Positions 5,881 to 45,642 of a stretch of 52,928 bases of DNA are shown piece after piece. Each line of letters begins with the position of its first letter. The stretch's first letter is position 1. This stretch comes from Bacillota bacterium (lineage in GTDB: Bacteria > Bacillota > TC1). Made by a program: the position numbers and the translations under genes. The stretch spans positions 1 through 52,928 of the forward strand of contig JAQUGR010000009.1 in assembly GCA_028683955.1 (NCBI GenBank), written 5' to 3'. Below the pieces are notes generated by a model. It did no database searches. It was not told the origin of the DNA and saw only the letters and a list, made by a program, of their open reading frames with translations.

Positions 5881-5896
5881 TAGTGGAGGTGAAATA

Positions 5897-6217: not shown

Positions 6218-6233
6218 GAAGGAGGACCCAATT

Positions 6234-6776: not shown

Positions 6777-6786
6777 GGAGGATATA

Positions 6787-6972: not shown

Positions 6973-6999
6973 GCTTAAACTTTGAAAGGAGGTTTTTAA

Positions 7000-10769: not shown

Positions 10770-11413
10770 TGTTCCTGTTAATTATGGGACCTCCTGGCTC
10801 AGGTAAAGGTACACAAGCTAAAGTTTTAGCTAGAAAATACCAAATACCACATATCTCTTCTGGAGATATTTTCAGACAAGCTATGGAGATCGATGATGTA
10901 TTGGGAAAAGAACTACAGCTAGCAATCAACAAGGGTCAGCTAGTGCCAGATGAATTGACAAATAAGATTGTTGAAAGAAGACTGCTACAAGAAGATTGCC
11001 AAAAGGGTTTCATACTCGATGGTTATCCAAGAACAATAGCTCAGGCTGATGCCTTAGGTTTACTATTGGAAAGACTTGGATGTGGACTTAATAAAGTGAT
11101 TAATTTAGATGTTGATTCAAATGTTATTATCGGCAGATTAAGTAAAAGATTGTTATGTAAACACTGTGGTGCTTCTTTTAACCTTATAACTAATCCTCCA
11201 AGGAATGAGGGGGTATGCGATACATGCAAATCCTCTTTAAGTGTTAGAGAAGATGACAATGATAAAACGGTTGTTGATAGAATAAATGTATATGAAGAAA
11301 AAACGAAGCCATTAATTGAGTATTATAACAAAAAAAAAATATTGTGTAATATAAAAGGTGACGTTGATGTTGTAGAAGCAACCAAGGCTATATTAGCTTG
11401 TTTAGAGAGGTAA
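10769..11413 (+). CDS. adk: Adenylate kinase (zinc-binding LID)
   Basis: 214 residues. The P-loop GPPGSGKGTQ is at 7-16, the AMP-binding SGDIFRQA follows, and LDGYPRT is at about 83-89. The LID domain has four cysteines, C130, C133, C150 and C153, so it is the zinc-containing type common in Gram-positive bacteria. It interconverts ATP plus AMP and 2 ADP in the cytoplasm. The ATG overlaps the secY stop (TAATG), which indicates tight coupling. Confidence 0.97.
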   Translation: MFLLIMGPPGSGKGTQAKVLARKYQIPHISSGDIFRQAMEIDDVLGKELQLAINKGQLVPDELTNKIVERRLLQEDCQKGFILDGYPRTIAQADALGLLLERLGCGLNKVINLDVDSNVIIGRLSKRLLCKHCGASFNLITNPPRNEGVCDTCKSSLSVREDDNDKTVVDRINVYEEKTKPLIEYYNKKKILCNIKGDVDVVEATKAILACLER

Positions 11414-11418
11414 TTCAA

Positions 11419-12177
11419 TTGATAACAATAAAGAATGCCGAAGCCATTTTAAAAATGACAGAAGCTGGCAAAATAGTAGGTTTGGTTCATGATAAATTAA
11501 AGGGAATTATCGAACCTGGTATAACCTTATTAGAACTTGATCGTCAAGCTGAGAAGCTAATATTAAAGTTGGGCGCAAAGCCAAGCTTTAAGGGCTACGG
11601 AGGTTTCCCGGCAACAATTTGTGCTTCAGTTGATGAACAGGTTATCCACGGCATACCAAGTAAAAGAAAACTAAGAGAAGGTGAGATAGTTAGCATTGAT
11701 GTTGGTGCATTCTATCTTGGCTATCATGGAGATGCAGCTTTTACCGCGGCAGTTGGAACAATTTCAGAAGAAAAAGCAAGGTTGATTGAAATAACCGAGC
11801 GAAGCTTTTATGAAGGTTTCAAAATGGCAAAAGCAGGAAATCGTTTAGGTGATATTTCTCATAGTATTGAAAAGGTAGTTCTTGATGCAGGTTATTTTGT
11901 AGTTAAAGAATTTGTTGGACACGGCATAGGCACAGAGCTTCATGAAGATCCTTCAGTTCCTAATTATGGACCACCTGGCAGAGGACCACTATTAGAACCT
12001 GGTATGGCTTTAGCTATAGAACCTATGGTAAACATGGGGACAGAGTCCATAATCATTTTAGATGATGGATGGACTGTAATTACAAGGGATAAAAAGCCTT
12101 CAGCACATTATGAACATACCATTCTAATTACTGATTCAGAGCCGGTTATTCTAACTAAAGGTGAAGAACTTGATTAG
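11419..12177 (+). CDS. map: Methionine aminopeptidase, type I
   Basis: 252 residues from TTG 11419 (MITIKNAEAILKM); AGAGAGG lies upstream within the end of adk. It removes the initiator methionine co-translationally. Metal and substrate residues are visible: the HGIP histidine, the aspartates in SIDVGAF and GYHGDAAF, the histidine in FVGHGIG, and glutamates in AIEPMV and near HYEHTILI. There is no N-terminal SH3/zinc extension. It shares 8 nt with the TTG of the next, damaged gene. Confidence 0.96.
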   Translation: MITIKNAEAILKMTEAGKIVGLVHDKLKGIIEPGITLLELDRQAEKLILKLGAKPSFKGYGGFPATICASVDEQVIHGIPSKRKLREGEIVSIDVGAFYLGYHGDAAFTAAVGTISEEKARLIEITERSFYEGFKMAKAGNRLGDISHSIEKVVLDAGYFVVKEFVGHGIGTELHEDPSVPNYGPPGRGPLLEPGMALAIEPMVNMGTESIIILDDGWTVITRDKKPSAHYEHTILITDSEPVILTKGEELD

Positions 12178-12473
12178 TCCAGGTATGATTGTAAATAGTA
12201 TTAAAGGCAGAGACAAGGATCGTATATTATATGGTTCTCAAAATTGAAGAAGATCGGCGTTTTGTGATAGTTGTTGATGGTGTGTATAGGAAATTAGCCA
12301 ATCCTAAGAAAAAAAATATCAAACATATCGAAATGAGTGGTATAATTATAGATGTGTTGAATATTAAATTACAACAAAACAAAATGCTTCAGGACAGTGA
12401 AATAGCCCGTCACATTAGGGAGTTTCAGGAAAAGAAAATAAAGGAGATGATTGAGTGTCCAAACAAGATGTGA
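12170..12473 (+). pseudogene. KOW-domain (L14e-like) RNA-binding protein, frameshifted
   Basis: A small KOW-domain protein commonly sits between map and infA in Clostridia. Here it is split over two frames. From TTG 12170 (AAAGGTGA box 5 nt upstream), frame one reads GMIVNSIKGRDKDR and stops at TGA 12245-12247. The rest of the family pattern, VDGVYRKLANPKKKNIKHIE, is in the +1 frame, open from ATG 12231 to the stop at 12471-12473. The break falls in the TA-rich tract at about 12221-12232. It could be a true indel, an assembly or sequencing error, or less likely recoding. Restart at ATG 12231 (AAGGA 11 nt upstream) would give an 80-residue protein lacking half the KOW motif. The 3' end overlaps infA by 19 nt. 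Confidence 0.75.
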
Positions 12474-12673
12474 TTGAAGTTGAAGGTGTTATAATTGACG
12501 CACTTCCAAACGCAATGTTTAAAGTTGAATTGGATAATGGTCATCAAGTCTTAGCGCATATATCTGGAAAGATTAGAGTTAATTTTATCAGAATATTGCC
12601 TGGAGACAGAGTTAAATTGGAACTGTCTCCCTATGATTTGACAAAGGGACGTATCACTTATAGGTTCAAATAA
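12455..12673 (+). CDS. infA: Translation initiation factor IF-1
   Basis: 72 residues, the normal length. An OB fold: [28 protein letters not shown], then [19 protein letters not shown] and the C-terminal [13 protein letters not shown]-1 blocks the A site of the 30S subunit during initiation. It starts at GTG 12455 after AAGGAGATG and overlaps the 3' end of the KOW gene. Confidence 0.97.
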
Positions 12674-12694
12674 AAAAATTAAGGAGGGTTTATA

Positions 12695-12808
12695 ATGAAA
12701 GTTAGAGCATCTGTTAAGCCCATTTGTGAAAAATGTAAAGTGATTAAGAGAAAAGGCAAAGTAATGGTAATTTGCGAAAATCTTAAACATAAGCAGGTAC
12801 AAGGGTAA
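12695..12808 (+). CDS. rpmJ: 50S ribosomal protein L36
   Basis: 37 codons: [20 protein letters not shown] at the start, then [17 protein letters not shown]. This is the full L36 with zinc ligands C11, C14 and C27 and a histidine near position 32, the zinc-binding (C+) form. AAGGAGGG lies 7 nt upstream of the ATG. L36 is the smallest 50S protein. Its place between infA and rpsM is canonical. Confidence 0.97.
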
Positions 12809-12828
12809 AAAATATTGGAGGTGTAAAT

Positions 12829-13197
12829 ATGGCACGTATCGCTGGTGTTGATATTCCAAAAGACAAGAGAGTTGAAGTTTCTTTAACTTATGTTTTCGGA
12901 ATTGGACGTGTTACAGCTAATAAAATCTTAGCTGCTACTGGTATAAGTCCAGACTCAAGAGTAAAAGATTTGTCTGAAGAAGATGTAAATCTATTACGTG
13001 ATGAAATTAGTAAAAATTATAATGTTGAGGGTGATTTAAGAAGAGAAGTATCGCTTAACATTAAAAGATTAATGGAAATTAATTCTTATAGAGGTATTCG
13101 TCACAGAAGAGGTCTTCCTGTTCGTGGACAAAATACAAAAAATAACGCAAGAACAAGAAAAGGCCCTAATAGAGGGGCTATTGCTAAAAAGAAATAA
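12829..13197 (+). CDS. rpsM: 30S ribosomal protein S13
   Basis: 122 residues: [26 protein letters not shown], the helix-turn-helix core, then [27 protein letters not shown] with the basic tail that reaches the P-site tRNA. S13 pairs with S19 in the 30S head. GGAGGTG precedes the ATG. Confidence 0.98.
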
Positions 13198-16505: not shown

Positions 16506-17356
16506 AAAACGTATATTACAAATATGATGTTGATGATAATACTAGTGAAGAGTATGGGATATTTGATATTTCTTTGAAAGTTGAACAAGGCAAAACTGTA
16601 GGTATAATTGGCAAAACAGGTTCTGGAAAATCAACTTTGATGCAACATTTAAATGCATTATACCTTCCTCAACAGGGGAGGGTTATTGTTGGTGATTTTA
16701 TTGTTGATAGAAAATCAAAAGACCTGAAAAACTTAAGGAAAAAAGTTGGTATGGTTTTTCAGTATCCTGAAGATCAACTTTTCGAAGAGACTATATATAA
16801 TGATTTAGCCTTTGGTCCTAAAAATCTAGGTTTAACAAATGATCAGATTGAAAAGGCTATTAAAGGTGCAATGGAAGATCTTGAACTAGACTTTGAATCA
16901 ATGAGAGACAGATCTCCATATGAATTATCAGGCGGGCAAAAAAGAAAAGTCGCAATTGCCTCTGTCCTGGCCATGAATCCAGAAATATTAGTATTAGATG
17001 AACCGACAGCAGGGTTGGACCCGAAAAGTAAAAATGATCTTTTAGATTTATTAATTAGTATTAAAAAGAAAAGAAACCTTACTTTGTTTTTCGTATCACA
17101 TAATATGGATGACGTATTTTTATTAACAGAATATGTTTATGTTATGTGTGATGGAAGAATTGTCTTTGAAGGTTTGGTTGATGAAGTTTTTCAAGAAAAT
17201 AAAAAACTAAGAGATTTAAATCTTGGAGTGCCATTTAGTGTGGAAGTTTTAGAGTTACTTGCTAAAAGAGGCATGTATAAAGGAGTTCTAAAACCTATGG
17301 AATTAGATGAATTAGCTGATTTGATTAAGAATATATTAAGAGGTAGCAATGATTAA
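16490..17356 (+). CDS. ecfA2: ECF transporter ATPase A2
   Basis: 288 residues. Walker A is GKTGSGKST, and the EcfA2-type segment FQYPEDQLFEETIYNDLAFGPKNLG is clear, with LSGGQKRKVAIAS and LVLDEPTAGLDP. The switch histidine is in VSHNMDDV. It pairs with EcfA1 to hydrolyse ATP for substrate release through EcfT. The ATG lies within the end of ecfA1, and its own end overlaps ecfT by 8 nt, so all three are translationally coupled. Confidence 0.95.
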   Translation: MAVILENVYYKYDVDDNTSEEYGIFDISLKVEQGKTVGIIGKTGSGKSTLMQHLNALYLPQQGRVIVGDFIVDRKSKDLKNLRKKVGMVFQYPEDQLFEETIYNDLAFGPKNLGLTNDQIEKAIKGAMEDLELDFESMRDRSPYELSGGQKRKVAIASVLAMNPEILVLDEPTAGLDPKSKNDLLDLLISIKKKRNLTLFFVSHNMDDVFLLTEYVYVMCDGRIVFEGLVDEVFQENKKLRDLNLGVPFSVEVLELLAKRGMYKGVLKPMELDELADLIKNILRGSND

Positions 17357-18149
17357 GGATATTACAATAGGTCAATATATATATAAAGATTCAGTAGTAC
17401 ATAAACTAGATCCTAGAACTAAAATTCTGGCATCTATGTTTTTTATGTTTGGAATTTTTCTTATAAATAACATTACTGAATATATATTTGTTTTCTTACT
17501 TACAGCTATAACAATTTATTTGTCACAAATACCTGTGATGAAGATAATAAAAGGATTAAAGCCGATATTTCCTCTTATGATGCTAACCGTTATAATGAAC
17601 ATGTTTTTTACTCAAGGCGCAGCGATATTTCATTGGGCATTTATAAATATTACTAGAGAAGGTATATATTTAGCTGGGTTTATGGGGATAAGAATATTCT
17701 TTTTAATTATTTTCACTTCGTTACTAACATTAACAACATCACCTATAACACTTACTAATGGGATAGAAGGTTTATTAACACCTTTAAAAAGATTCAAAGT
17801 GCCTTCTCATGAAATTGCAATGATGATGAGTATCGCATTAAGATTCATCCCTACACTTATAGATGAAACAGATAAGATAATGAAAGCGCAAAAAGCAAGA
17901 GGCGCTGATTTTGAATCTGGTAATATAATCAAGAGAACGAAATCATTAGTACCTATACTTATACCTCTATTTATCAGCGCATTTACTAGAGCTGATGAAT
18001 TAGCCATGGCTATGGAGGCTAGAGGATATAGAGGTGATGAAGGAAGAACTAGATTTAAGGAATTAAAATATAGAAATATTGACAGAATTATTTTGACTAT
18101 ATTTGCTTTTGTTCTAGTGTTTTTGATTATAAGAAAAATAGCTTTTTAG
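17349..18149 (+). CDS. ecfT: ECF transporter transmembrane subunit T
   Basis: 266 residues with about five to six hydrophobic segments. The coupling-helix motif KAQKARGADF and the second ARG box AMEARGYRGDEGRTRF are the EcfT hallmarks that contact the two ATPases. N-terminal HKLDPRTKILAS is also conserved. In many Bacillota truA, rplM and rpsI follow this gene; here they do not, and a 140-nt gap follows instead. Confidence 0.95.
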   Translation: MIKDITIGQYIYKDSVVHKLDPRTKILASMFFMFGIFLINNITEYIFVFLLTAITIYLSQIPVMKIIKGLKPIFPLMMLTVIMNMFFTQGAAIFHWAFINITREGIYLAGFMGIRIFFLIIFTSLLTLTTSPITLTNGIEGLLTPLKRFKVPSHEIAMMMSIALRFIPTLIDETDKIMKAQKARGADFESGNIIKRTKSLVPILIPLFISAFTRADELAMAMEARGYRGDEGRTRFKELKYRNIDRIILTIFAFVLVFLIIRKIAF

Positions 18150-18289
18150 AGAGTTTAAGGTTTTAAGGTGGAGTTTATTTACATCAAATAGAATAACTAA
18201 GCTTAAAGGATGCATTTTAAGCCTGTAAAAGGCATCATAGCATGAATAACAGGTTCACATAGACTAAATGGTAAAAGAGGAGAATTTTA
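18150..18289 (+). other. 140-nt gap with possible structured leader
   Basis: No ORF and no clear terminator. There is an inverted repeat GCTTAAA (18201-18207) with TTTAAGC (18216-18222), and a further possible 5-bp pairing CCTGT (222-226 of 18 kb) with ACAGG (249-253), ending 34 nt before the next gene's GAGGAG box. The layout could be an untranslated leader of the DJ-1/queH operon. I do not recognise a known riboswitch class in it. Confidence 0.3.
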
Positions 18290-18835
18290 ATGATTAGTAT
18301 ATTATTAGGCTCAGGATTTGAAGAAGTTGAAGCTATAACAGTTTTTGATATTCTAAAAAGAGCAGGAGCGGATATAGCATTAGTATCAGTAACAGGTTCA
18401 ATCGAAGTGAGCAGTGCAAGAAATTTAGTAATAAAAACTGATGAATTATTAGATGATATAAAAGATAGAAAACATCAGATGATTGTCATTCCTGGAGGAA
18501 TGGGTGGAGTTAAAAGAATTATAAATTCACCATCTGCCAAGATTTTTCTACAACAAGCTTTTAGAGATAAAACTAAGATTGGAGCTATATGCGCCGGACC
18601 TATAGTATTAGACAAATTCGGGCTTTTTAATGAAGAGACAAAATATACATGTTATCCAGGAGTAGAGAATGAAATAAGTATGGGTATCTATTTAGAAGAG
18701 GATATTGTTATTGATAATCAATTTATTACTTCAGTTGGACCTGGTACAGCAGAAAAATTTGCATTTAAATTAGTTGAAATTATATTTGATAAAGAAAAAG
18801 TTGCAGAAGTAAAAACTGGCTGGTTTGGGAAATAA
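18290..18835 (+). CDS. DJ-1/PfpI family protein
   Basis: 181 residues, a single class I glutamine-amidotransferase-like domain. The conserved glutamate is in GSGFEEVEA (about residues 11-14), VIPGG is at about 66-70, and the nucleophile elbow AICAGP carries C101. Relatives include the DJ-1/ThiJ/YajL group with proposed chaperone, deglycase or glyoxalase roles, which are debated. The exact activity cannot be assigned. The sequence is cytoplasmic with no signal. AGAGGAG precedes the ATG. It is followed 1 nt later by queH and is probably in the same operon. Confidence 0.9.
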   Translation: MISILLGSGFEEVEAITVFDILKRAGADIALVSVTGSIEVSSARNLVIKTDELLDDIKDRKHQMIVIPGGMGGVKRIINSPSAKIFLQQAFRDKTKIGAICAGPIVLDKFGLFNEETKYTCYPGVENEISMGIYLEEDIVIDNQFITSVGPGTAEKFAFKLVEIIFDKEKVAEVKTGWFGK

Positions 18836-18836
18836 T

Positions 18837-19454
18837 ATGAAAATTAATTATAACAAAGAGATGAATAAAACTATAGAAGAACTTAAAGGGAAAAGACCGA
18901 AAATCTTACTCCATAGTTGTTGTGGACCTTGTAGTACTAGCGTTATTGATAGGCTTAATCCTTATTTTGAGATTATAGTTTATTACTATAATCCCAATAT
19001 TTCACCAGAAGAAGAATACTTAAGGAGAGCTGAGGAACAAATCAACTATCTTAAAAGTATAGGAATCGAATATGTTTTAGGCGATTACGAAATTGAAAAA
19101 TATGAATCAGCAGTTAGAGGTTTAGAAAAAGAAAAAGAAGGCGGGTTAAGATGTTTAACTTGCTTTAGGTTACGCTTGGAAAAGACTGCACAGAAGGCTG
19201 ATGAATTGAATATAGGATATTTTACAACTACTCTTACTGTTAGTGCTCATAAGAACAGTCAATTAATTAACGAAGCTGGAATAAAAATAGCTAGGAACTA
19301 TGAAGTTAGTTATTTAGCTAGTGATTTTAAAAAAGAAGATGGTTATAAGAAATCTGTAGATTTGAGCAAAGAATTAGGTATGTACAGACAAGATTATTGT
19401 GGTTGTAAGTTTAGTAAAAAGGAAAGTGAGATTAAAAGTGAAGACAAAATTTAA
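18837..19454 (+). CDS. queH: Epoxyqueuosine reductase QueH
   Basis: 205 residues from ATG 18837, 1 nt after the upstream stop; the in-frame TTG at 18825 would overlap that gene. QueH catalyses the last step of queuosine synthesis in tRNA, reducing epoxyqueuosine. Its cysteine pattern is complete: HSCCGPC (C28, C29, C32), CLTC (C106, C109) and YCGC (C188, C190), the ligands of the iron-sulfur and second metal site. No other queuosine genes are in the window. The 3' end overlaps the next gene. Confidence 0.93.
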   Translation: MKINYNKEMNKTIEELKGKRPKILLHSCCGPCSTSVIDRLNPYFEIIVYYYNPNISPEEEYLRRAEEQINYLKSIGIEYVLGDYEIEKYESAVRGLEKEKEGGLRCLTCFRLRLEKTAQKADELNIGYFTTTLTVSAHKNSQLINEAGIKIARNYEVSYLASDFKKEDGYKKSVDLSKELGMYRQDYCGCKFSKKESEIKSEDKI

Positions 19455-28682: not shown

Positions 28683-29784
28683 ATGTTATCTGAAGATATT
28701 TTAGAACAATTAACAAAGTTGAAAAAAACATATAATGATATTAAGGAGTCTCTTTGACTTAGAGAGTAAAACTCAAAGAATTGAGCATCTTAATAAAAAA
28801 AGACTTGATGAGGATTTTTGGCTAGATCAAAAAAATGCTAGCCAAATAAATAAAGAAATCAATACATTAGAAAATGATTTAGCTGAAATTATTAATTTAG
28901 ATTCATTGATTGGTGATATTTCAGCTTCTATAGAATTGTTGAATATTGATGAAGATAAAGAAATACTCAAAGAGTTAAAAGCTTCAATCATAGAGTTAGA
29001 GACGAGAATTAACAGTTTAGAAATAAAAAAAATGTTTAAAGGTAAAACAGACTTTAAAAATGCTATACTAACACTACATCCTGGTGCAGGTGGTACTGAA
29101 GCACAAGATTGGGTGGAAATGTTATATAGAATGTATCTAAGGTGGAGTGAAAAAAAAGGTTTCAAAGTATATATACTTGATTTTCTTCCTGGGGATGAAG
29201 CTGGAATAAAAAGTATATCATTTGAAGTTATTGGTGATTATGCTTATGGTTATTTGAAATCAGAAAATGGAGTTCATAGATTGATTAGAATATCTCCATT
29301 TGATACAAATAAAAAGAGGCACACTACTTTTGCATCTCTTGATGTAATTCCAGAAATAGACGATGAAGAAGTAATTGATATTAGGGAGGAAGACTTAAGA
29401 ATCGACACATATAGAGCAAGTGGCGCTGGAGGTCAAAACGTTAATAAGAAGGATACAGCAGTGAGGATTACACATATGCCAAGTGCCATTGTAGTTCAGT
29501 GTCAAAGTGAAAGAAGTCAATTGACCAACAAAAATGCTGCCTTAAAAATTTTAAAAAGCAAATTATTAGAATATAATAGGGTTGAAGAAGAAAACAATTT
29601 GAAAAATTTGCGAAGTGATCAAAAAGAAATTGCATGGGGCCACCAAATTAGATCATATGTTTTCCAACCTTACCAACTTGTAAAAGATCATAGGACAAAT
29701 ATTGAATCTGGATCAATTGATTCAGTATTAGATGGTGAATTGGATCAATTTATTAAAGGTTTTCTTTATGGAGGGGGACAATAA
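28683..29784 (+). CDS. prfB: Peptide chain release factor 2, with programmed +1 frameshift
   Basis: The full product is the join of 28683-28754 and 28756-29784, 366 residues. The first 24 codons run from ATG 28683 to CTT, then an in-frame TGA (28755-28757). Shifting +1 at CTT-TGA-C continues as LDLESKTQRIEHLN. RF2 hallmarks follow: SPF codon-recognition tripeptide in RISPFDTNKK and the catalytic GGQ in GAGGQNVNKKDTA. RF2 ends translation at TGA and TAA. High RF2 favours termination at the internal TGA, so the gene regulates itself. The stop overlaps the TPR gene start (TAATG). Confidence 0.97.
28743..28758 (+). promoter_or_regulatory. prfB +1 recoding site
   Basis: AAGGAG, three bases, then CTT TGA C, the same spacing as the E. 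coli prfB site: an internal Shine-Dalgarno-like element, the slippery leucine codon CTT, and the TGA stop in poor termination context. It shows TGA is a genuine stop in this genome. Confidence 0.95.
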
Positions 29785-32700
29785 TGAGGATAACAGATAA
29801 TGAAGAACTGAATTTAACTGAAGGTCAGGATATTGTCTTTTTTCTAGGACATGAATTCTCACTTGAAGGGACTAATTTATTTAAAATAATTCCTAATATA
29901 AAAGGAAAAAGCTATGTTATAAATCAGAGTGGTTATGATTTGAAAAAATTATGTTCATTCTACAATATACAGACAGTCTTTCTTGATGTTGATGCGCAAC
30001 TAATAGAAAAGGCTGTCTATTTGTTCATTCAGGTCAATGATGATGATTTAGTAAGGATTAAAAGCATTCTTGATTCTAGTTCGAAGATAAAGCATCATGT
30101 ACTTTTAAACAATCCTGAATATTATTACCATTTTATTGAGAAATTGAAAAAAAATACAGTCGTTGTTCATTTGCCAATATTATTTAATCACTTCCCTATT
30201 CATATAGAAGGTGTTCCAAAAGAAGAAAATCCTTTTTATTATAAGGATCTATTTGATATTAAAATATATATTGATCTATATTGGGGAAGTATACTTGAAG
30301 ATAAATTAAATGTACGTAATACAAAGGGTTATTTATATAAATATTTGGAAAACATTTATAAAGAAAAGAAAAATGAATTAGAAACAATCTTGAATTATAA
30401 GATTCCAAGTAAAGCCATTGATCTTTCAATAGATAAATTTAATGCTAGACCATTAACTTTAAAAGAAAGTATTGAAAAATCTATTTTAGAAGGTGATTAT
30501 GATAAACTTCCACAATTGGTTGAAAATCTTATTAATCAAGATGCTAGCCAATTTAATAATATTTACGAATGGATTAAGTATTTAGAATGTAAGGCGCCAA
30601 ATAATGTAATTCAAGGAATATTGGAAAATACTTTGAAATCTGATGATGTAATTATAGATAACAGATTTCTTCCTTTAGTATATGAGAAATTAGCTATAAC
30701 ATATCAAAAAGAAGGAGATTTAAATGCTGCTGCAAGTTGTTACAGACGATTCTCAAATTTGGAAAATATAAATGGAGAGTTAAAGAACATAAGTAGTAAT
30801 TTCTTAAGAAAAGAAGTTGAATTACTTTATATGGCAGGTGAGTTCCAAGCTATAATAGATATTGGTGTGGAGGAAAAGCTGTCAATATTAAATCGTGAAG
30901 ATGCACCTAGTGTAGCACTATGTTTATCTTTAGCTCACAATGAATTAGGAAATTATGAAAAGGCGACTCAGTTCCTTAAAGGTGACAGTGAAGAAAAAGC
31001 TTTTTTAAGAAATATATATAAATTAAATAAAGCTGAAATATCAGCACATAGCATTATGAAAGAGGTAAACTTCACAAAATTATCACTTTATAATGATATG
31101 CTTATTGCAATGGCATTAATGAAAGATGGACAGTACGTTGATACTATAAAAGTATTTAATCGTATGAAGGAAGTACTCGTTAATCCACAAAATTTAATAG
31201 CTAGAAGGGTTTTGCTTATTGTATCCTTATTAAAAGCTAGAGCTTTAAAATATATGGGGAATATTAGAGAAAGTTTGATTGAGTACTATAATAACTTGGA
31301 AGCACATAGTGAAGATTTTGAAAAAGATAATAGAAGTCTAATATTAGAAATACTATATGAAATTGCTGATTTAGAAAAATCTATGAAAAATACTAGGAAA
31401 AGTTTAGATTTAATTGATAAAGGCTTGTCTATAAAAAGAGATGAAACCAGTGTTTATGAAAATCAGGCTCATATACAACTTCTTTTAATAAAATTAGAAA
31501 TAATTAATGAAACTGGAGAAGATGACAAGAAGCTAATAGAAATTTTAGACAATATTTTAAGCGATAAAAAGAACATGTCTGAATACAAACCATTACAAGT
31601 TAAAATGAATAATATTTTAGTAAGAGCATATGTCAAGAATGGAAGAATAAGAGAAGCCTTAGATATTATAGAAAATAGCTATAACGAATATAAAGAGGAA
31701 ACAGATAAGAATATTGAATTTGATCTTCTAGAGATGTTGGAAATAGCTAAAGAGCAATATAAGGCTACAGATGTACCGGAAACTGGAATGTTGCAATTAA
31801 AACGTATAGTTGACAAGTACAGAGATAATAAAAATACGGAAATACGAATTAGAAGAGCATTTGCATTAAAGGAATTGGCTGATTATATGCTTAGTATGGG
31901 CGATGATAATGGTGCAATGAAAGAATATAAAAGATTGATTGAAGAATATAGTGGGAATAAATATAAAAAATTAGAAAGTATATTGCAAGACACAATGATA
32001 AAAAAAGGTGAGATATCTTTTAAGAAAGGTAATTATGAGGAAGTAAGAGATTCTTTAATGTCCATAGAAGGAAAACTTAATTCAGATACGGATGCCAGCC
32101 GTGAGTTATTATTAGCTAAATGTAGTGAGAAGCTGGGGAACCGTGAATTAGCTATTAGTGGATATGAAGAATATTTAATTAAAATTAAAGATAAAAATTT
32201 CTTTGAGGATGTTAAAGGACCGATATACAATGCATTGAGCAAATTACTTGTAAGTATAGGTAGAAAAGAACGAGCTATAGAATATTTAGACAAACTACTT
32301 GAAGTTGAATTTGTGCCGATAGGCAGATTAGTGGCATTGTTGGATAAAAGTAAATTATTGTATGAATTAGATAATGATAAAGGTTATCTTATTTATGAAT
32401 ATAGTATTAAGACTTTTAAAGGAGAAACGGATAATAATATCTTAGAAACTTTAGTAAATATTTGTTCTGAAATAGCTGTTGATATAGCGAAAAGAGATAT
32501 TAACTTATATTCAGATTATTTGAAAATTGCTTTAAGTAAATTTAAAAACCTGTCTAAGGGTACAAAGGCTAAAATCTTTGAATCTATGAGAATAGCTGCT
32601 GAAATATATGAGAAATCAAATTTACTAACTGATGAGAAATCTATGAGAACTGAAATAGTTAAATATTTTGGAGATAAAGAAACTTTAGATTATCAAATAG

Positions 32701-33338
32701 AATCTGCTTATCATTATAATAGAATCCTAGAAATAAATATTCAAGAAAATACTATTGATGATTTAGATCATAGTTGTGCAGATTATAAGAGTTTCTTTAT
32801 TGGCAAAGAATCTGATTTTGCTAAGGATACCTGTAATCAAGGTTTATTAATGTATGGTAAAGAATATCTAAAAAGAAATGACTTGAAAAAAGCCAAGAAA
32901 ATTCTAAAGGAAATCCTGGATTTTAATAATGAAATGTTTTTAGCTAAGTTATATTATGGGAAAACCTTAACAGCTCTTGGAGAAAACAAGAAAGCATTAA
33001 AAGCTTTTAACGATATAGTTGAACATGACATATCAGGGGAACTATTTGAATCTGTTAAAGAAAAAATAAGATTAGAAAAAAAAGAAAAATCCTTATTTAG
33101 AGGCAACATGAAAAAACTTATCAAGGAAATTGAGGAACGAATCTTGCCTGTAATTAATGCAGGAGAAAATAATGAGAATAAAATTATATTAATTTATGAA
33201 TTAGCTTTACTATATAAAGCAATTAAAAATATAGATAAATACCAAGAGTTATTACGAGGTTTAATAGAAAAATATTCTAAACACGAAGATGAAAATATAA
33301 GTGAAAATCTTAAATTAGTATATAAGGAATTAGAATAA
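29784..33338 (+). CDS. Large TPR-repeat protein of unknown function
   Basis: 1184 residues, no signal peptide or transmembrane segment seen, so probably cytoplasmic. Residues 1-230 form a distinct alpha/beta region with alternating hydrophobic strands (DIVFFLGHEF, TVFLDVDA, HHVLLNN, TVVVHLPILF). The remainder is mostly paired helices of the tetratricopeptide type, for example LAITYQKEGDLNAAASCYRR, RAYVKNGRIREALDII, ADYMLSMGDDNGAMKEYKRL, KCSEKLGNRELAISGYEEYL and YYGKTLTALGENKKALKAF. I cannot name the N-terminal domain or a function. The start overlaps the prfB stop by 1 nt, so it is probably co-translated with RF2. It ends before a promoter for transketolase. Likely a scaffold or regulator, by inference only. 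Confidence 0.85.
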   Translation: MRITDNEELNLTEGQDIVFFLGHEFSLEGTNLFKIIPNIKGKSYVINQSGYDLKKLCSFYNIQTVFLDVDAQLIEKAVYLFIQVNDDDLVRIKSILDSSSKIKHHVLLNNPEYYYHFIEKLKKNTVVVHLPILFNHFPIHIEGVPKEENPFYYKDLFDIKIYIDLYWGSILEDKLNVRNTKGYLYKYLENIYKEKKNELETILNYKIPSKAIDLSIDKFNARPLTLKESIEKSILEGDYDKLPQLVENLINQDASQFNNIYEWIKYLECKAPNNVIQGILENTLKSDDVIIDNRFLPLVYEKLAITYQKEGDLNAAASCYRRFSNLENINGELKNISSNFLRKEVELLYMAGEFQAIIDIGVEEKLSILNREDAPSVALCLSLAHNELGNYEKATQFLKGDSEEKAFLRNIYKLNKAEISAHSIMKEVNFTKLSLYNDMLIAMALMKDGQYVDTIKVFNRMKEVLVNPQNLIARRVLLIVSLLKARALKYMGNIRESLIEYYNNLEAHSEDFEKDNRSLILEILYEIADLEKSMKNTRKSLDLIDKGLSIKRDETSVYENQAHIQLLLIKLEIINETGEDDKKLIEILDNILSDKKNMSEYKPLQVKMNNILVRAYVKNGRIREALDIIENSYNEYKEETDKNIEFDLLEMLEIAKEQYKATDVPETGMLQLKRIVDKYRDNKNTEIRIRRAFALKELADYMLSMGDDNGAMKEYKRLIEEYSGNKYKKLESILQDTMIKKGEISFKKGNYEEVRDSLMSIEGKLNSDTDASRELLLAKCSEKLGNRELAISGYEEYLIKIKDKNFFEDVKGPIYNALSKLLVSIGRKERAIEYLDKLLEVEFVPIGRLVALLDKSKLLYELDNDKGYLIYEYSIKTFKGETDNNILETLVNICSEIAVDIAKRDINLYSDYLKIALSKFKNLSKGTKAKIFESMRIAAEIYEKSNLLTDEKSMRTEIVKYFGDKETLDYQIESAYHYNRILEINIQENTIDDLDHSCADYKSFFIGKESDFAKDTCNQGLLMYGKEYLKRNDLKKAKKILKEILDFNNEMFLAKLYYGKTLTALGENKKALKAFNDIVEHDISGELFESVKEKIRLEKKEKSLFRGNMKKLIKEIEERILPVINAGENNENKIILIYELALLYKAIKNIDKYQELLRGLIEKYSKHEDENISENLKLVYKELE

Positions 33339-36785: not shown

Positions 36786-37943
36786 TTGAACAGAATAATA
36801 AAAGGAATTATAGGAATAATGGTTTTAACAATTATTCTTGTTATGCCATCATCAATGGTTCATGCAGGTTTGACAGATGATAAGGCTGAATCTGAAAAGC
36901 AAATAGCGGAATTTAAGAAATTGATTGATAGTGCCAACGGAAATATTGAGACTATTTCCGCTAAAGTTGATGCAGTTGTTAATAAAATTAAGGAAATAGA
37001 TGCTAACTTGGTTAAAATCAATCAAGAAATAAAAGTTATTGAAGGAAATATAACTACTAAAGAAGCAGAGATTGCAAAAGCAAAAGTTGAATATGATAAA
37101 AAGAAAAATACGTTTTATGAAAATCTTAGGACTACATATGAAAAGGGTGGCGTAGATTATACATCAGTTATTTTAGATTCGTCTGACTTAACAGATTTTA
37201 TAAATATAAATGAATATTCAAGAATTATTAAGGAAAAAGAACAAGAAAAAATAAATGAAATAGTTGAAGCGAAAAAAGCTCTTGAAGTACAGAAAAAGGA
37301 CTTGGAAAAAATCCAAGCTTCTTTAGCTAGTAAAAAAGCTGATATTGTTGCTCAAAAAAAACAACAAACTATTGAACAAGAAAAACTAGCATCTCAAAAA
37401 GCATATTTTGCTTCTATTGCTCAAAAGTATAAAGCTGAATTGGCAAAAGAAGAAAAAGAATTAGCTGATATAAATAATAAAATAAAAGAAGCTATGAAGA
37501 GTACTGGTAGTAGTGGATTGGTTTATACTGGAAATGGTATATTCAATTGGCCTGTACCAGCTTCAAATAGAATCTCAAGTGATTATGGTTGGAGATCAAG
37601 TCCTATTTTTGGAGGAAGTGAATTTCATAAAGGCATAGATATTAGTGCAAGTGGTGGATCTACTATTGTAGCATCTGAGGATGGAGTTGTATTACTTTCA
37701 TATTATTCAAGTTCATTTGGTAATACTGTAGTAATAAATCATGGTAGTGGTGTTATGACCCTCTATGCACACATGAGTGCTAGATCTGTATCTGCAGGTC
37801 AAGCAGTTTCTAGTGGTCAAAAAATAGGAGCTGTTGGTAGTACTGGTTGGAGTACAGGGAATCACCTCCATTTCCAAGTAACAAACAAAGGCGATATTTT
37901 CAACGGTTATGTTGACCCTAATATTTACCTTAATTTTAGATAA
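36786..37943 (+). CDS. Coiled-coil M23 peptidoglycan endopeptidase (FtsEX partner, CwlO/PcsB-like organisation)
   Basis: 385 residues. An N-terminal signal segment (about 1-28, ending VHAGL), a long charged coiled coil (about 30-235), then a LytM/M23 domain (about 250-385). Zinc and catalytic residues are intact: H281 and D285 in HKGID, H329 in LYAHM, and H360/H362 in HLHF. It should therefore be an active D,D-endopeptidase, not a degenerate EnvC-type activator. It starts at TTG 36786 after AAGGGGG. Next to ftsEX, it is the likely partner activated through FtsX, as CwlO and PcsB are in other Gram-positives; this is inference from context. Confidence 0.9.
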   Translation: MNRIIKGIIGIMVLTIILVMPSSMVHAGLTDDKAESEKQIAEFKKLIDSANGNIETISAKVDAVVNKIKEIDANLVKINQEIKVIEGNITTKEAEIAKAKVEYDKKKNTFYENLRTTYEKGGVDYTSVILDSSDLTDFININEYSRIIKEKEQEKINEIVEAKKALEVQKKDLEKIQASLASKKADIVAQKKQQTIEQEKLASQKAYFASIAQKYKAELAKEEKELADINNKIKEAMKSTGSSGLVYTGNGIFNWPVPASNRISSDYGWRSSPIFGGSEFHKGIDISASGGSTIVASEDGVVLLSYYSSSFGNTVVINHGSGVMTLYAHMSARSVSAGQAVSSGQKIGAVGSTGWSTGNHLHFQVTNKGDIFNGYVDPNIYLNFR

Positions 37944-37962
37944 TTAGAACAAGGAGTAATTG

Positions 37963-39051
37963 ATGAAGAAAATAGTAATGGGAATAATTTCTATAATAGC
38001 AGTGTTATTGGTGTTTTCCCTAACTGGATATAGTAAAGTCGATGCATCACTATCTAGTGATAAAAAAGAAACTGAGCAAAATATAGCAAAGTTTAAAAAA
38101 AATCTCGATGATTTAGAGAATCAAAGATTTGAAATAATTGCTAAATTAGAAGCTGTAGATGTTTCTATAATTAATGTAGAAAAGAAAATTGCTCAATTAG
38201 AAAAAGATCTAACTTCAAAAGAAAAACAGTTAGAGGCAACAACTATAAGTTATAATAAGCAAAAGGCTGGTTTTTATGATCATCTTAGAAACAAATATGA
38301 ACAAGGAGATGTTCAATATGTGTCTGTTGTTCTTGATGCAACTAATCTAACTGATGTTATTAATTACAATGAGTATTATAGAATTATCAAAGAGAAAGAA
38401 TCAGAACAAATAAATAAACTGCAAGAGGTTAAAGCTGATTTAGAAACGCAAAAAAAAGTTATAGAGAAAAATAAAAAAACAACAATCGAACAAAAAAACA
38501 CTTTAACTTTGGACAGAGCAAAGTTAGCCGCTGTTAAAAAAACATATGACAATAGTATGGCAAGTGTAAAAAAACAGTTAGCTGCAGAAGAAGCAGATAG
38601 GGTGGCAATTCTAAAAGAAATTGCTGCATTAAACAGACCTGTGTCAGGCAATTATACAGGTAATGGCAGGTTGCAATGGCCAGTACCGTCTATACCTACA
38701 TCAACTACCAACATATCAGGTTTTAGAACACCTTCAAGACCAACTCATATGGGTATGGATATTGGAGGCTATGGTGTTACAGGTAGAACAATAGTTGCTG
38801 CAGATGATGGGGAAGTGATATTAGCTAAAAGCTATTATGGATATGGAAATACAGTTATTATAGATCATAATAATGGAATGATGACTTTATATGGACATCT
38901 TGCTAGTATAAAAGTAAAAGCTGGTCAAACTGTAAGCCGAGGACAAGTTATAGGTATCATGGGTAATACTGGACAAAGTTCTGGTATACATTTACATATT
39001 GAAGTTATTATAAATGGGACTAGGGTAAATCCTGAATCTTATATTAGATAG
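37963..39051 (+). CDS. Second coiled-coil M23 endopeptidase, paralogue of the preceding gene
   Basis: 362 residues from ATG 37963, 6 nt after AAGGAG. Same design as its neighbour: signal segment, coiled coil (about 30-225), M23 domain (about 235-362). Zinc and catalytic positions are present: H262 and D266 in HMGMD, H312 in LYGHL, H343/H345 in HLHI. A stretch at about residues 104-150 (DHLRNKYEQGDVQYVSVVLD then NYNEYYRIIKEKE) closely matches the first protein, indicating tandem duplication. It could be a differently regulated or differently localised hydrolase. Confidence 0.9.
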   Translation: MKKIVMGIISIIAVLLVFSLTGYSKVDASLSSDKKETEQNIAKFKKNLDDLENQRFEIIAKLEAVDVSIINVEKKIAQLEKDLTSKEKQLEATTISYNKQKAGFYDHLRNKYEQGDVQYVSVVLDATNLTDVINYNEYYRIIKEKESEQINKLQEVKADLETQKKVIEKNKKTTIEQKNTLTLDRAKLAAVKKTYDNSMASVKKQLAAEEADRVAILKEIAALNRPVSGNYTGNGRLQWPVPSIPTSTTNISGFRTPSRPTHMGMDIGGYGVTGRTIVAADDGEVILAKSYYGYGNTVIIDHNNGMMTLYGHLASIKVKAGQTVSRGQVIGIMGNTGQSSGIHLHIEVIINGTRVNPESYIR

Positions 39052-39060
39052 GAGAAATAT

Positions 39061-39816
39061 TTGAGTAAGAGTAAGTTAAAAGTAGTGGTAATTGCTGTTC
39101 TACTTGGAGTATTAAGCTTTACTGGTTTGAATCAAGGTAATATTCAAGCTGATGAATTAAAGAGCAAACAAGTGGTGTTGGCAAAGGAAATTATAAAGTC
39201 TATTAAATATCAAGCAGATATTAAGACCGAGTTGGAAATTATTAAGAATAAAGAAAGTTCTGATTCAGATGCTTTAAATATTGATTTGACATTAGAGATG
39301 ACTTTTCAAAAAACACTTGAAAACTTAGAAATAGAATTAATTAAAGATAAATTAGAATTTGAGTTAGTGAACAAACAAATTTTAAGCGTTGGTGATACTG
39401 CAGAATTGCCTTATTTAGGTGATGGCAGTTATACTTGGCCAGTAGAAGATTATTTTAACGTCTCTCAATATTATGGAGCCACTCATAAAGGAATTGATAT
39501 CAACACATTAGGAGCTCATCCTAATGTTGTAGCAGTTCAGACGGGCATTGTTGTAAAAGCAATAAATGATGGCGATGGTTTTGGTAATAAAGTTGTAGTC
39601 TATCAAGGGGATAATACATATACTTTATATGCTCACTTGCAAACTATGAAAGTACAAGTTGGACAATATATTGAAGAAGGTAAAATTATCGGATTAGTTG
39701 GCCATACTGGCAATAGCACAGGTGACCACCTGCATATACAAATGACAAAATCAGGAAATGTAGAAAATAATACAATAGATCCATATGAATATATAAAGAT
39801 AGTGGAGAATAAATAA
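39061..39816 (+). CDS. Short M23 endopeptidase with signal segment
   Basis: 251 residues. Signal segment to about residue 30, a short helical linker in place of the long coiled coil, and a complete M23 domain (about 115-251) with H142 and D146 in HKGID, H192 in LYAHL and H223/H225 in HLHI. It starts at TTG 39061 after GGAGAAA. It is the third M23 enzyme in a row; lacking the long coiled coil, it probably does not respond to FtsX the same way. The next gene starts 1 nt after its stop. Confidence 0.88.
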   Translation: MSKSKLKVVVIAVLLGVLSFTGLNQGNIQADELKSKQVVLAKEIIKSIKYQADIKTELEIIKNKESSDSDALNIDLTLEMTFQKTLENLEIELIKDKLEFELVNKQILSVGDTAELPYLGDGSYTWPVEDYFNVSQYYGATHKGIDINTLGAHPNVVAVQTGIVVKAINDGDGFGNKVVVYQGDNTYTLYAHLQTMKVQVGQYIEEGKIIGLVGHTGNSTGDHLHIQMTKSGNVENNTIDPYEYIKIVENK

Positions 39817-41040: not shown

Positions 41041-43014
41041 TTGAATAAATTAGGTAAATTTGATTTAGTGTCAGACTTCAAACCGGCAGGTGATCAACCA
41101 GTTGCAATTAAATCTCTTGTTGAGGGCTTGAACGAAGGTCATGTTCATCAAACATTACTTGGAGTTACAGGTAGTGGTAAAACTTTTACAATGGCTAATA
41201 TTATTGCTGAAGTTAATAAACCAACTTTAATTATGGCACCTAATAAAACTCTAGCGGCACAATTATGTAGTGAGTTTAAGGAGTTTTTTCCAAATAATGC
41301 GGTAGAATTTTTTGTTAGTTATTATGATTATTATCAACCTGAAGCATATATTCCCAATTCTGATACATATATATCAAAAGATAGTGCCATCAATGATGAA
41401 ATTGATAAATTAAGACACTCAGCCACTTCTGCACTTTTTGAAAGAAGAGATGTCATTATAGTCGCAAGTGTTTCTTGTATTTATGGACTAGGTTCCCCAG
41501 AAGATTATCAGACAATGCTTTTATCTTTAAGGGAAGGACAAATTATTTCTAGAGATGATATAGTTAATAAATTAGTAGATATTCAATATACTAGAAATGA
41601 TATTAACTTTATTAGAAATACATTTAGAATTCGTGGAGATGTTATAGAAATAATACCAGCAAGTTTATCTGAACAGGGATATAGAATTGAATTATTTGGT
41701 GATGAAATAGAAAAAATAATTGAGTTTGATATATTAACTGGTGAAATTCTAGGTAATTTAAAACATCTAGCAGTTTTCCCAGCAAGTCACTATATAGTTT
41801 CTGAAGAAAAGTTAAATAAAGCTATTAAAAATATTAAAATTGAATTAGTAGATAGATTAGAGTATTTTAAAAGTAATAATAAACTTTTAGAATCACAAAG
41901 ATTAGAAGAAAGAACTCTCCATGATTTGGAAATGATTAAAGAAATAGGACATTGTTCAGGTATTGAAAACTATTCAAGACATTTAACTGGTAAAAAAGCA
42001 GGGGAAATGCCCAATACATTAATTGACTATTTTCCAGATGATTTTTTAATTTTTGCAGATGAATCCCATGTTACTATACCCCAAATTGGAGGAATGTATG
42101 CTGGGGATAGATCAAGAAAACAAGTTTTAGTTGATTATGGATTTAGGCTACCCTCAGCACTAGATAATAGACCTTTATCATTTCAAGAGTTTGAAAGCAA
42201 AGTCAATCAAATTGTATATTTTTCAGCTACTCCAGGTAAATATGAACTAGAACATAGTAGTAATTTCGTTCAGCAAATAATTAGACCAACCGGCCTACTA
42301 GATCCTATTTTAGAAGTAAGACCAACTAAGCATCAAGTTGATGATTTACAAGAAGAGATAAATAAGCGAATAGTTAAAAAAGAGAGGGTTCTAGTAACAA
42401 CATTAACGATAAAAATGGCAGAAGACTTAACGGGATATTTTGAAAATGCAGGGCTTAAAGTTAGATATTTACATAGTGAAATTAAAACATTAGAACGAAT
42501 GGAAATAATCAGAGATTTAAGATTAGGTGTTTTTGACGTGCTAATTGGTATTAATCTTCTAAGAGAAGGATTAGATTTACCTGAAGTATCTTTAGTTGCA
42601 ATATTAGATGCGGATAAGGAAGGCTTTTTAAGATCAGAAAGATCATTGATCCAAACAATTGGTCGTGCGGCTAGAAATAGTGAGGGGAAAGTAATTCTTT
42701 ATGGTGATAAAATTACTGATTCTATGGCCAAAGCCATTGATGAAACTAATAGAAGACGAAAAATACAAGCAGATTACAATGTTAAAAATAACATAATACC
42801 TAAAACAATTATTAAGAATGTAAGAGATATTCTTGAAATTACATATAAAGGTGAACAAGCAAACAGAAAACCAGCAGCTAAATTGAAGAAAAAAGAAATG
42901 TTGAATATGATTAAAACATTAGAAAAGGAAATGGCTATAAAAGCTAAGGATTTAAAATTTGAGGAAGCAGCAGAATTAAGAGATTTAATATTTGAACTAA
43001 AAACCAATTTATAG
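41041..43014 (+). CDS. uvrB: UvrABC system protein B
   Basis: 657 residues. [11 protein letters not shown] is Walker A; the beta-hairpin region [12 protein letters not shown], motif [22 protein letters not shown], helicase motifs [26 protein letters not shown] and QTIGRAARN, and a C-terminal UVR motif (about 620-655) that contacts UvrC. It verifies damage in nucleotide excision repair. It starts at TTG 41041 after AGGAGG. uvrA, often its neighbour, is not in this window. Confidence 0.97.
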
Positions 43015-43054: not shown

Positions 43055-44794
43055 ATGAGAAAAAATATTGGATATGTTAAGAAAACTAGATTAAAAACTA
43101 AGACAGGAAGAAAACGTAGGATTAATGGAAATTTACCAAAGGCACTTTGGTTTATTTATCCTGTCATATATATTTTTTTTATTCAATCATTATCATTTGC
43201 TAGTTTAATAAAAGGCTTTATTAATACTTTAGTTAATCCTTATTATTTTGTGCTTACATATCTTTTAGTAGTAGGTTTTTCATTTGTTTTATGGTTGTTT
43301 TTTGAAAATAGATGGATAAGCTTTTCTGTGTTAAATGGATTAGGTTTAATTTTAGCTTTAGGGAATAGATTTACAATACCTAAAGGGGAAACTGGATTAG
43401 CTATAAATAACATAGGTATATTTAAAGAACTGGGGTTAATACAAAGTGCTAGTTTAATTTCTTTTACTCCTTTTATCATAATGATATTATTTTTTCTACC
43501 AATACTATATTTATTAATATATTTTATGTATCAATGGAAACAAGGTTTGAAGTATAGGCAAATTGCTGCTATTGGATCTTTGCTGATATTTCTATTTATC
43601 TCTCAATTAATAATTCCTTTGATTTCCTCATCTAAAAATAGTTTATCTAATGTTGATAAACTAGGGGTTATATTGTTTTTTAATAACGGAGTTTTTAGTA
43701 AGAATAATATTAAGTATCCTGATGAGATTTCAGTGAAAGAAATTATAGAGAAAGTAGATTTGAAAACAAATGAACCAATAACTAAACCTAATATCATTAT
43801 GGTTCAATTAACAAATTTTGTTGATATATCAAGAATTGAGAGTCTTGATACTGACCCTTTGAATAATTATCATAATACTTTTAATGAAGCTTCAACTTAT
43901 AGTGTTGATTTATCAGCAAAAGACAATAATAATCTGAATATTGAATTTGAAGTTTTGGCAGGACTTCCAGTAGAATTTCATCCAAATGAACTTCAAGTTC
44001 GTGCTGGTAATACAAGTTTAGGGACTATTAGTTTAGGAAGTATTCTCTCAGAGCAAGGATATGCGAGTGAAAGCATTTTACCTTATTCAAGTGATGATAG
44101 AGCAGAATTTTATGAAAAATTAGGTTTTGATGATTATATAGGTTCGGAAGATTTAGGTGATGGTGCTATAAAAGATATTTTAGCTGAAATAAAAGTTAAA
44201 TTAGATAAATCTGTAGATACAAACAAACCTGTTTTTATATATACGCACTTTAATTTGCTACAATCTAATTATGAAGATGTTGATACCGATCAATATATTA
44301 ATGATTTGAAATTACTTGATGCTCAAATTGCTGATTTGAAAAAAACTATTTTAGAATCTAAAGAACCTACAATACTAATGTTTTATAGTGATGAACTACC
44401 TACATTAGGAATTGATAATAAGATATATTATGATTCTGGATATTTAAAGAGTACTGATTCAAAGTTAGAAATAGAAAAAAAATTAAATACTGGGGATATA
44501 TTATTATGGGATAATTATAATGAAGGAGCTAGTTATCAAAATGGTGATACTTTTGATTTATGTAGTATTCCTTTCTTGCTTTTAAATAAATGTGGACTAT
44601 CAATGCCTAATTATCTTCAATATTTTCAATATTTAAAAGATGAAGAAGGACTTTCTAGAATAAGTTCTGATTATTTAGAAATTAATAAAGTCATCTTTGC
44701 TAATAATACAAATGAATATAGAAATATATCTAAAGAATTTTCTATAGTTATTAAAGATGTGTTAGGCCCTTATAAATATATTGAGAGGAATTAA
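43055..44794 (+). CDS. LtaS-like membrane protein, apparently catalytically inactive
   Basis: 579 residues. Basic N terminus, five hydrophobic segments (about 31-190), then an extracellular alkaline-phosphatase-fold domain (about 243-520). The domain keeps LtaS-family landmarks: KPNII, EFEVLAGLP, LGSILSEQGYASESILPY, KLGFDDYIG. Yet key residues of lipoteichoic acid synthase look changed: the metal-binding glutamate is T253 (QLTNF), the catalytic threonine position is N293, and the GDH metal motif reads SDE (D446, E447). It may be a pseudoenzyme or bind a ligand without transferring glycerol phosphate. The alignment is by eye. Confidence 0.75.
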   Translation: MRKNIGYVKKTRLKTKTGRKRRINGNLPKALWFIYPVIYIFFIQSLSFASLIKGFINTLVNPYYFVLTYLLVVGFSFVLWLFFENRWISFSVLNGLGLILALGNRFTIPKGETGLAINNIGIFKELGLIQSASLISFTPFIIMILFFLPILYLLIYFMYQWKQGLKYRQIAAIGSLLIFLFISQLIIPLISSSKNSLSNVDKLGVILFFNNGVFSKNNIKYPDEISVKEIIEKVDLKTNEPITKPNIIMVQLTNFVDISRIESLDTDPLNNYHNTFNEASTYSVDLSAKDNNNLNIEFEVLAGLPVEFHPNELQVRAGNTSLGTISLGSILSEQGYASESILPYSSDDRAEFYEKLGFDDYIGSEDLGDGAIKDILAEIKVKLDKSVDTNKPVFIYTHFNLLQSNYEDVDTDQYINDLKLLDAQIADLKKTILESKEPTILMFYSDELPTLGIDNKIYYDSGYLKSTDSKLEIEKKLNTGDILLWDNYNEGASYQNGDTFDLCSIPFLLLNKCGLSMPNYLQYFQYLKDEEGLSRISSDYLEINKVIFANNTNEYRNISKEFSIVIKDVLGPYKYIERN

Positions 44795-44799
44795 TAAAT

Positions 44800-45642
44800 A
44801 TGGTCCAATTAAAAGCTTATGGGAAAATTAATTTGACTTTAGAGGTTTTAGGGTTAAGAGTGGATGGTTATCATGAAATTAGAAGTATTATGCAAAATAT
44901 AGAGCTTCATGATAATTTGACTTTTGAGAATAATTCTGATGGGACGATTGAGCTAACTGGAAATTGTAAACTTCTTGAATATAATGAAAAAAACCTTATA
45001 TATAAATCTGCAAAAGCATTGTTGGATTATAACGATAAGGGGATGGGCGTAAGAATTTATTTAGATAAAAGAATACCACTTGAAGCTGGTTTGGCTGGTG
45101 GGAGTGCTGATGCGGCAGCAACATTAATTGGTCTAAATAATTTATGGGAATTAAATTTATCAATAGATGAATTAATCAGTATTGGGTCACAAATTGGTTC
45201 AGATATTCCATTTTGCTTAGTAGGTAAAACTGCTTTAGTAGAAGGTAGAGGAGAAAAAGTTACGAGCTTAAAATCTCCTTCGAAAGAAAAGTTATTAATT
45301 GTCAAACCTGAATTTGGTGCAAGTACTAAATTAATCTATAGTAAGTATGATGAGTTGGATAAAAAGAATAAGTTGAATAATACAGATTTAATGATTAATG
45401 AGATTATTAATGAAGGAGATTACAAAAGATATTTATATAATGATCTGGAAAAGGTGACTGCTAAAGTATACCCAGAAGTAAAAGAGATTCTTGATATTAT
45501 GCATCAGGAATGTGAATATGCAATAATGAGTGGCAGTGGTCCAACTTGTTTAGCTTTTGGAGATGAGAAGGCCATAAATTTACTTTATGATATATTTAAA
45601 GTTAAATATAAAGATGTGTTAATTACTTCACTGAAGACTTAG
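44800..45642 (+). CDS. ispE: 4-diphosphocytidyl-2-C-methyl-D-erythritol kinase
   Basis: 280 residues, a GHMP kinase. It begins with AYGKINLTLEVLGLRVDGYHEI, has the ATP-binding glycine-rich loop PLEAGLAGGSADAAATL and the C-terminal MSGSGPTCLAFG. It phosphorylates CDP-methylerythritol in the MEP isoprenoid pathway, so the organism probably makes isoprenoids this way. It starts 5 nt after the LtaS-like gene, suggesting co-transcription. Confidence 0.95.
   Translation: MVQLKAYGKINLTLEVLGLRVDGYHEIRSIMQNIELHDNLTFENNSDGTIELTGNCKLLEYNEKNLIYKSAKALLDYNDKGMGVRIYLDKRIPLEAGLAGGSADAAATLIGLNNLWELNLSIDELISIGSQIGSDIPFCLVGKTALVEGRGEKVTSLKSPSKEKLLIVKPEFGASTKLIYSKYDELDKKNKLNNTDLMINEIINEGDYKRYLYNDLEKVTAKVYPEVKEILDIMHQECEYAIMSGSGPTCLAFGDEKAINLLYDIFKVKYKDVLITSLKT

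Follow-up and report, generated by a model that had tools for sequence, protein, structure and literature searches.

A GacH/LtaS-type phosphoglycerol transferase paralogue that has very probably lost catalysis and been kept under selection in a family of Bacillota

The gene at positions 43055 to 44794 raises the question whether a membrane transferase whose catalytic residues have been replaced is a copy on its way to decay or a protein selected for some other role. A first-pass annotation of this DNA had described its product as an LtaS-like protein with three of four key catalytic positions changed, and had argued for a selected, non-enzymatic function. We followed these claims in the window, i.e. 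the whole stretch of 52,928 nucleotides that was analysed, and in related genomes. The features needed for the argument are listed below in window coordinates; residues of the six orthologues are always given in the order window protein, G003, G004, G001, G002 and G005.

41041..43014, + strand: uvrB, directly upstream; adjacent in 5/6 family genomes, not in G005
43055..44794, + strand: intact 579-aa protein of GacH/LtaS phosphoglycerol-transferase type, most likely a lineage-specific pseudoenzyme (open reading frame, Pfam, alignments)
43055..43138, + strand: N-terminal tail of basic character, residues 1-28, in which YVKK at residues 7-10 is shared by 6/6 orthologues
43142..43624, + strand: membrane region, residues ~30-190; five long predicted helices of low confidence
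43811..43813, + strand: Thr253 codon, position of the metal-binding Glu; T,T,T,T,P,S in the six orthologues
43931..43933, + strand: Asn293 codon, position of the nucleophilic Thr; N,N,S,N,S,N in the six orthologues
44099..44101, + strand: Arg349 codon, active-site Arg; kept in 6/6 orthologues and in 35/35 intact homologues examined
44387..44395, + strand: Ser445-Asp446-Glu447 codons, replacing Gly-Asp-His; SDE, SDN, SDN, SDN, TSK, SEK in the six orthologues
44800..45642, + strand: GHMP kinase resembling IspE, immediate downstream neighbour in 6/6 family genomes

The reading frame starts with ATG and stays open throughout its 579 codons, as had been stated before. The sole Pfam family detected in the window protein is PF00884 (Sulfatase; E 6.9e-9, 35.9 bits at a cut-off of 25), with the match limited to profile positions 51-263; two intact paralogues from the same genome, A and B, match PF00884 from profile position 1, where their Glu loop sits. 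The NCBIfam collection yielded a single match far under its cut-off. When the profile of the window clade, meaning the six orthologues, was aligned with that of paralogues A and B by hhalign, the profile-profile alignment covered 556 columns at 100% probability (E 8.8e-64). Together with the score above the family cut-off, this whole-length alignment with intact members establishes membership of the GacH/LtaS group of PF00884 by descent. Searched by itself, the window protein found no relative in the PDB at E up to 1, and the best match of the clade profile among solved structures was GacH (PDB 5u9z and 5wcx; E 7.5e-5, profile positions 226-534), which was also the best match of paralogue A (E 1.3e-17). 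The label LtaS-like is broadly right in this respect, but the nearest solved relative is GacH, for which reason the ancestor may have acted on a polysaccharide and not on lipoteichoic acid.

The catalytic motifs were placed by three methods, namely MAFFT, profile-profile alignment with hhalign and alignment of the clade profile to solved structures, and it is the alignment to GacH/LtaS-type structures, together with the LtaS residues listed in the accessible passages of PMC7576196, that identifies the metal and nucleophile site. A motif misalignment was rejected for the Glu, the Thr and the Asp-His pair, since the three methods agree on the residues assigned to these motifs. They bear out the replacements previously read by eye (Thr253 for the metal-binding Glu, Asn293 for the nucleophilic Thr and Ser-Asp446-Glu447 for Gly-Asp-His) and with them the count of three changed positions out of four; no alignment that places an intact set of Glu, Thr, Asp and His in the site was found. 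In the alignment, the metal Glu loop of the window protein, QLTNF, is matched to QSESF and its nucleophile loop, NNNLNIEFE, to GGTANTEFE.

Taken apart, the Gly position of the Gly-Asp-His motif holds S,S,S,S,T,S in the six orthologues (Ser445 in the window protein), the Asp position D,D,D,D,S,E and the His position E,N,N,N,K,K, so that the Asp is additionally changed in two of them (G002 and G005). The His of the LHP motif is replaced as well (Leu342 in the window protein; L,L,L,L,T,M across the six). Around the NHTP motif the alignment is unsure, its His being matched to Gln403 by MAFFT (Q,E,K,E,K,K) and to Leu401 by hhalign; His398, which lies just before the lost NHTP His and is present in 5/6 orthologues, may be its shifted counterpart. 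The metal Glu, the nucleophilic Thr and the Asp-His pair that mark an active GacH/LtaS transferase are all lacking in the six members. The intact set of Glu, Thr, Asp and His plus the Arg is kept in six type-A and five type-B paralogues and in 24/24 outside homologues examined.

A protein search of 61 genomes recovered an orthologue in each of the six searchable genomes of the family, two of which are less than 80% complete. The five other proteins are 79, 68, 64, 40 and 34% identical to the window protein in local alignments, the most distant one being 32% identical in alignment A1. In the sister family, 0/4 genomes gave a match to the window protein at E 1e-5, the class comprising 10 searchable genomes. 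Three orthologues are also found on the public MAG contigs JAGXHX010000081.1, JAGXHY010000006.1 and WTXA01000003.1, which we judged to be the same as the G003, G004 and G001 contigs. At E 1e-15, the clade profile matched in 35/398 genomes of the phylum, six from the family and 29 from outside. The outside homologues are one protein each from 24 of these 29 genomes, a set drawn from a phylum sample at this strict cut-off that omits five matching genomes and the second copies present in four genomes, with at most three candidates scored per genome. A wider family of dead relatives was rejected for this set, as all 24 outside proteins keep the site; given the genomes and second copies outside the set, the limit on candidates and the strict cut-off, dead relatives may exist elsewhere. 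Scans of viral contigs found no further relatives.

In all six genomes the window gene is directly followed by ispE, which acts early in the synthesis of isoprenoid carriers and likely lies on the same transcript. Upstream, the orthologue in G005 is preceded by genes other than uvrB, and in the sister family ispE stands behind another gene, by eye a methyltransferase, at the two of four loci inspected. Upstream of uvrB, the window carries cell-envelope genes (ftsE/ftsX-like, three M23 peptidases and a CtpB-like protease), the three M23 peptidase genes lying consecutively at 36786-39816, after the ftsE/ftsX-like genes and before the protease. Farther upstream, a protein of 1184 aa with tetratricopeptide-repeat matches is encoded at 29784-33338.

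The search for a second, intact copy proposed in the first-pass annotation was successful. In the genome that carries the window (G000), paralogues A (618 aa) and B (570 aa) are encoded in tandem on another contig at ~C4:35.6-39.2 kb (9582-13163 of locus L068), flanked by a penicillin-binding-protein-like gene and gatB-like genes, all names being assigned by eye; a second penicillin-binding-protein-like gene, likewise named by eye, is found at 16928-18976 of this locus. Two further, more distant PF00884 proteins above the cut-off are encoded on C7 and C15 of the same genome. All six genomes with the dead protein hold an intact paralogue, five of them A plus B and G005 A alone. In the sister family, PF00884 matches with the length of LtaS-like proteins occur in G007 and G009, neither of which has a dead orthologue, while G006 and G008 gave no PF00884 match at E 1e-5. 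One such protein of G007 (L084, 679-2529) retains the Glu and Gly-Asp-His and carries Ser in place of the nucleophilic Thr in the profile alignment; this single sequence is possibly a Ser-nucleophile variant. D-alanylation of a teichoic acid was considered and dropped, as no DltD match was obtained in 10/10 genomes searched, the control being positive in B. subtilis and L. lactis. A match to the UgtP-type glycolipid synthase family (PF06925) is present in 10/10 genomes and hence does not separate genomes with the dead protein from those without it.

A tree of 39 proteins, built by a quick method and with 22 members of the 24-protein outside set, unites the six dead proteins in a single clade (SH-aLRT 100), next to which stand clades A (92) and B (100). 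Jointly, these clades are split from the 22 outside proteins (SH-aLRT 99), and their branching order is weakly supported, with A joining B at 73. The simplest account would be a single loss of catalysis in a duplicate that predates the diversification of the family. The stem of the dead clade is the longest of the three, with 1.07 changes per site versus 0.63 for B and 0.17 for A.

This long stem is one of the observations expected of a paralogue that is heading towards decay and has not yet broken. The window protein also evolves faster than paralogue A, with 64% versus 80% identity between G000 and G001, and 64 of the 168 positions that are constant in A are altered in all six dead proteins. 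The frames, however, are open in 6/6 orthologues down to 32-34% identity, and the dN/dS ratios of the window gene stay low. Calculated according to Nei-Gojobori for G000 against its orthologues in G003, G004 and G001, these ratios, which are rough owing to dS values of 0.67-2.7 in the pairs compared, amount to 0.128, 0.218 and 0.171 for the window gene and 0.131, 0.160 and 0.087 for the neighbouring ispE. In the same three comparisons, we obtained 0.113, 0.178 and 0.120 for the ctpB-like gene, 0.223, 0.204 and 0.113 for paralogue B, 0.075, 0.092 and 0.072 for paralogue A and 0.030, 0.041 and 0.025 for uvrB. YN00 as a second method returned a value for one pair only (B of G003) and none for the window gene. 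A true relic looks different: G005, the sole family genome that yielded no intact type B, holds a broken LtaS/GacH-type copy at C1:155.7-157.1 kb (L072, ~5699-7092), which consists of four short pieces alternating between two frames. With open frames throughout, dN/dS in the range of the adjacent ispE and this broken copy as contrast, decay was rejected as an explanation of the changed site, and we regard ongoing decay of the window gene as highly improbable.

The earlier proposal of a selected loss of catalysis is supported by the open frame and the lost site common to 6/6 genomes, by a dN/dS of 0.13-0.22 and by the two intact paralogues in the genome. The sequence does not discriminate between the roles named in the first-pass annotation (glycolipid or teichoic acid sensor, scaffold) and that of an enzyme partner. 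Fold family, loss of the site in all six orthologues, their union in one clade, purifying selection and intact paralogues alongside are the grounds on which we consider the window protein very probably dead in the ancestral reaction and selected, its lack of activity being read from the residues alone.

In the window protein, predicted helices span residues 30-48, 62-82, 86-103, 134-159 and 165-190 at a pLDDT of only ~26-46, and the hhalign alignment with the intact paralogues A and B extends over this whole membrane region. AlphaFold2 models from four orthologues reached a pLDDT of 40.9 and a pTM of 0.42, too poor for the proposed superposition on S. aureus LtaS. A newly conserved patch at residues 451-490, the best window of its kind, was discarded, with 13/40 invariant columns versus 11/40 in A and a shuffle p of 0.43. 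The basic tail in front of the membrane region falls into a gap in 8/10 intact homologues of alignment A1, and its YVKK motif may be taken as a candidate contact, though as nothing beyond that.

As to function, we tentatively favour, at a little under an even chance, that the window protein serves the intact paralogues A and B as a partner or regulator without catalysing a reaction itself. The window gene would derive from a membrane phosphoglycerol transferase of GacH/LtaS type, as the third paralogue besides A and B, and would have been kept at full length after the loss of its metal and nucleophile site. Its product would be seated in the membrane with the dead domain outside, would bind a ligand via the pocket that retains Arg349 or via its surface, and would modulate or partner A and B, possibly with the basic YVKK tail as a cytoplasmic contact. 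It is a common pattern for a dead paralogue to act on its live relatives. Non-catalytic contacts of LtaS-type proteins are made plausible by S. aureus, for which a YpfP-LtaA-LtaS-DltD multi-enzyme complex contacting division proteins was proposed from data in the accessible part of PMC4065355. The separation of the window gene from the A/B tandem, which lies on another contig, and the shortness of the YVKK tail count against such a partnership. As G005 has a single intact paralogue, a fixed three-part complex is not required, and the live PF00884 relatives of G007 and G009 indicate that such relatives can do without the dead protein.

A different function, possible but on balance unlikely, would be that of an envelope sensor resembling PbgA/YejM, in which the dead domain recognises an external ligand, either a glycolipid or a phosphoglycerol polymer, while the membrane part or YVKK reports inside and sets the level of an early pathway enzyme, with no need for contact to A or B. 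PbgA/YejM provides the precedent of an LtaS-like domain without the usual catalytic residues acting as a lipid A sensor, as far as the accessible passages of PMC7018646 and PMC7773988 report. The retained Arg349, the conserved basic tail that most intact A1 homologues lack and the constant position of ispE behind the gene would fit this function; no homology to PbgA beyond the superfamily was found, however, with Pfam returning PF00884 alone at E up to 10, and the ispE adjacency is perhaps mere operon order. Extended to the whole family, the idea would be that duplication and catalytic loss gave rise to a subunit dedicated to regulating phosphoglycerol-polymer synthesis, a PbgA-like control evolved independently in a Bacillota-type lineage which would read polymer or lipid outside and signal via YVKK to the carrier-lipid or glycolipid pathway inside. 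We consider this extension doubtful. Less probable still is an enzyme with new chemistry, whose site would have been rebuilt for a reaction without the ancestral metal ligands. Ser occupies the nucleophile position in 2/6 orthologues, the Asp is kept in 4/6 and His398 in 5/6, the polar residues N254, N271, S340, N455, K476 and N478 are invariant in the clade and not constant in intact homologues, and YejM with its altered site is described in the accessible part of PMC7576196 as a Mg-dependent phosphatase. The replacements, however, do not form one constant set (T/P/S, N/S, D/S/E and E/N/K), although a catalytic site should be the most constant part of an enzyme: the six orthologues share 2/12 invariant columns in the Gly-Asp-His stretch and 4/14 in the nucleophile loop, versus 8/12 and 9/14 in paralogue A of the same genomes.

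Among known systems, GacH and LtaS are relatives of the window protein by descent, but the window protein, judged by its residues, does not qualify as an active member of their group and is most likely a lineage-specific pseudoenzyme. GacH, which decorates the streptococcal group A carbohydrate, has the same domain and is the best solved match of both the clade profile and paralogue A; its Ser-Glu-Ser, Gly-Gly-Thr and Gly-Asp-His motifs are the three of which none is intact in the window protein. LtaS of S. aureus (PDB 2w5q) was reached only by paralogue A; a search with the window protein at E up to 1 and one with the clade profile at E up to 0.1 did not return it. LtaS has a sulfatase-like outer domain behind a membrane part and shares the active-site Arg with the window protein. 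Measured against its site, given as Glu255, Thr300, Asp475, His476 and Arg356 in the accessible text of PMC7576196, the window clade has lost the Glu, the Thr and the His in 6/6 proteins and the Asp in 2/6.

The closest precedent in kind is PbgA/YejM/LapC of enterobacteria, which combines an LtaS-like outer domain with a membrane part, the latter a five-helix domain according to the accessible text of PMC7576196. Catalytic residues of the usual kind or in the proper place are described as absent (PMC7018646 and PMC7773988, as far as accessible), and the role of the protein in controlling lipopolysaccharide synthesis had long been unclear (accessible part of PMC7773988), while one group reports a bound metal alongside the phosphatase activity (PMC7576196, in part). 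The nucleophile position of YejM is still occupied by a Thr (same source), whereas the window protein has lost it, and the PbgA family DUF3413, named in the accessible part of PMC7018646, gave no match in the window protein with Pfam at E up to 10, in a search run without a PbgA positive control. In the open-licence literature, with subscription papers mostly outside its scope, we found no paper pairing 'LtaS' or 'lipoteichoic acid synthase' with 'pseudoenzyme'. To our knowledge, PbgA/YejM is the chief example so far of a dead protein with the LtaS-type fold. The window protein would add a second, independent case, located beside live paralogues in the same small genome, and thereby provide a way to ask how a polymer-building transferase becomes a regulator or partner.
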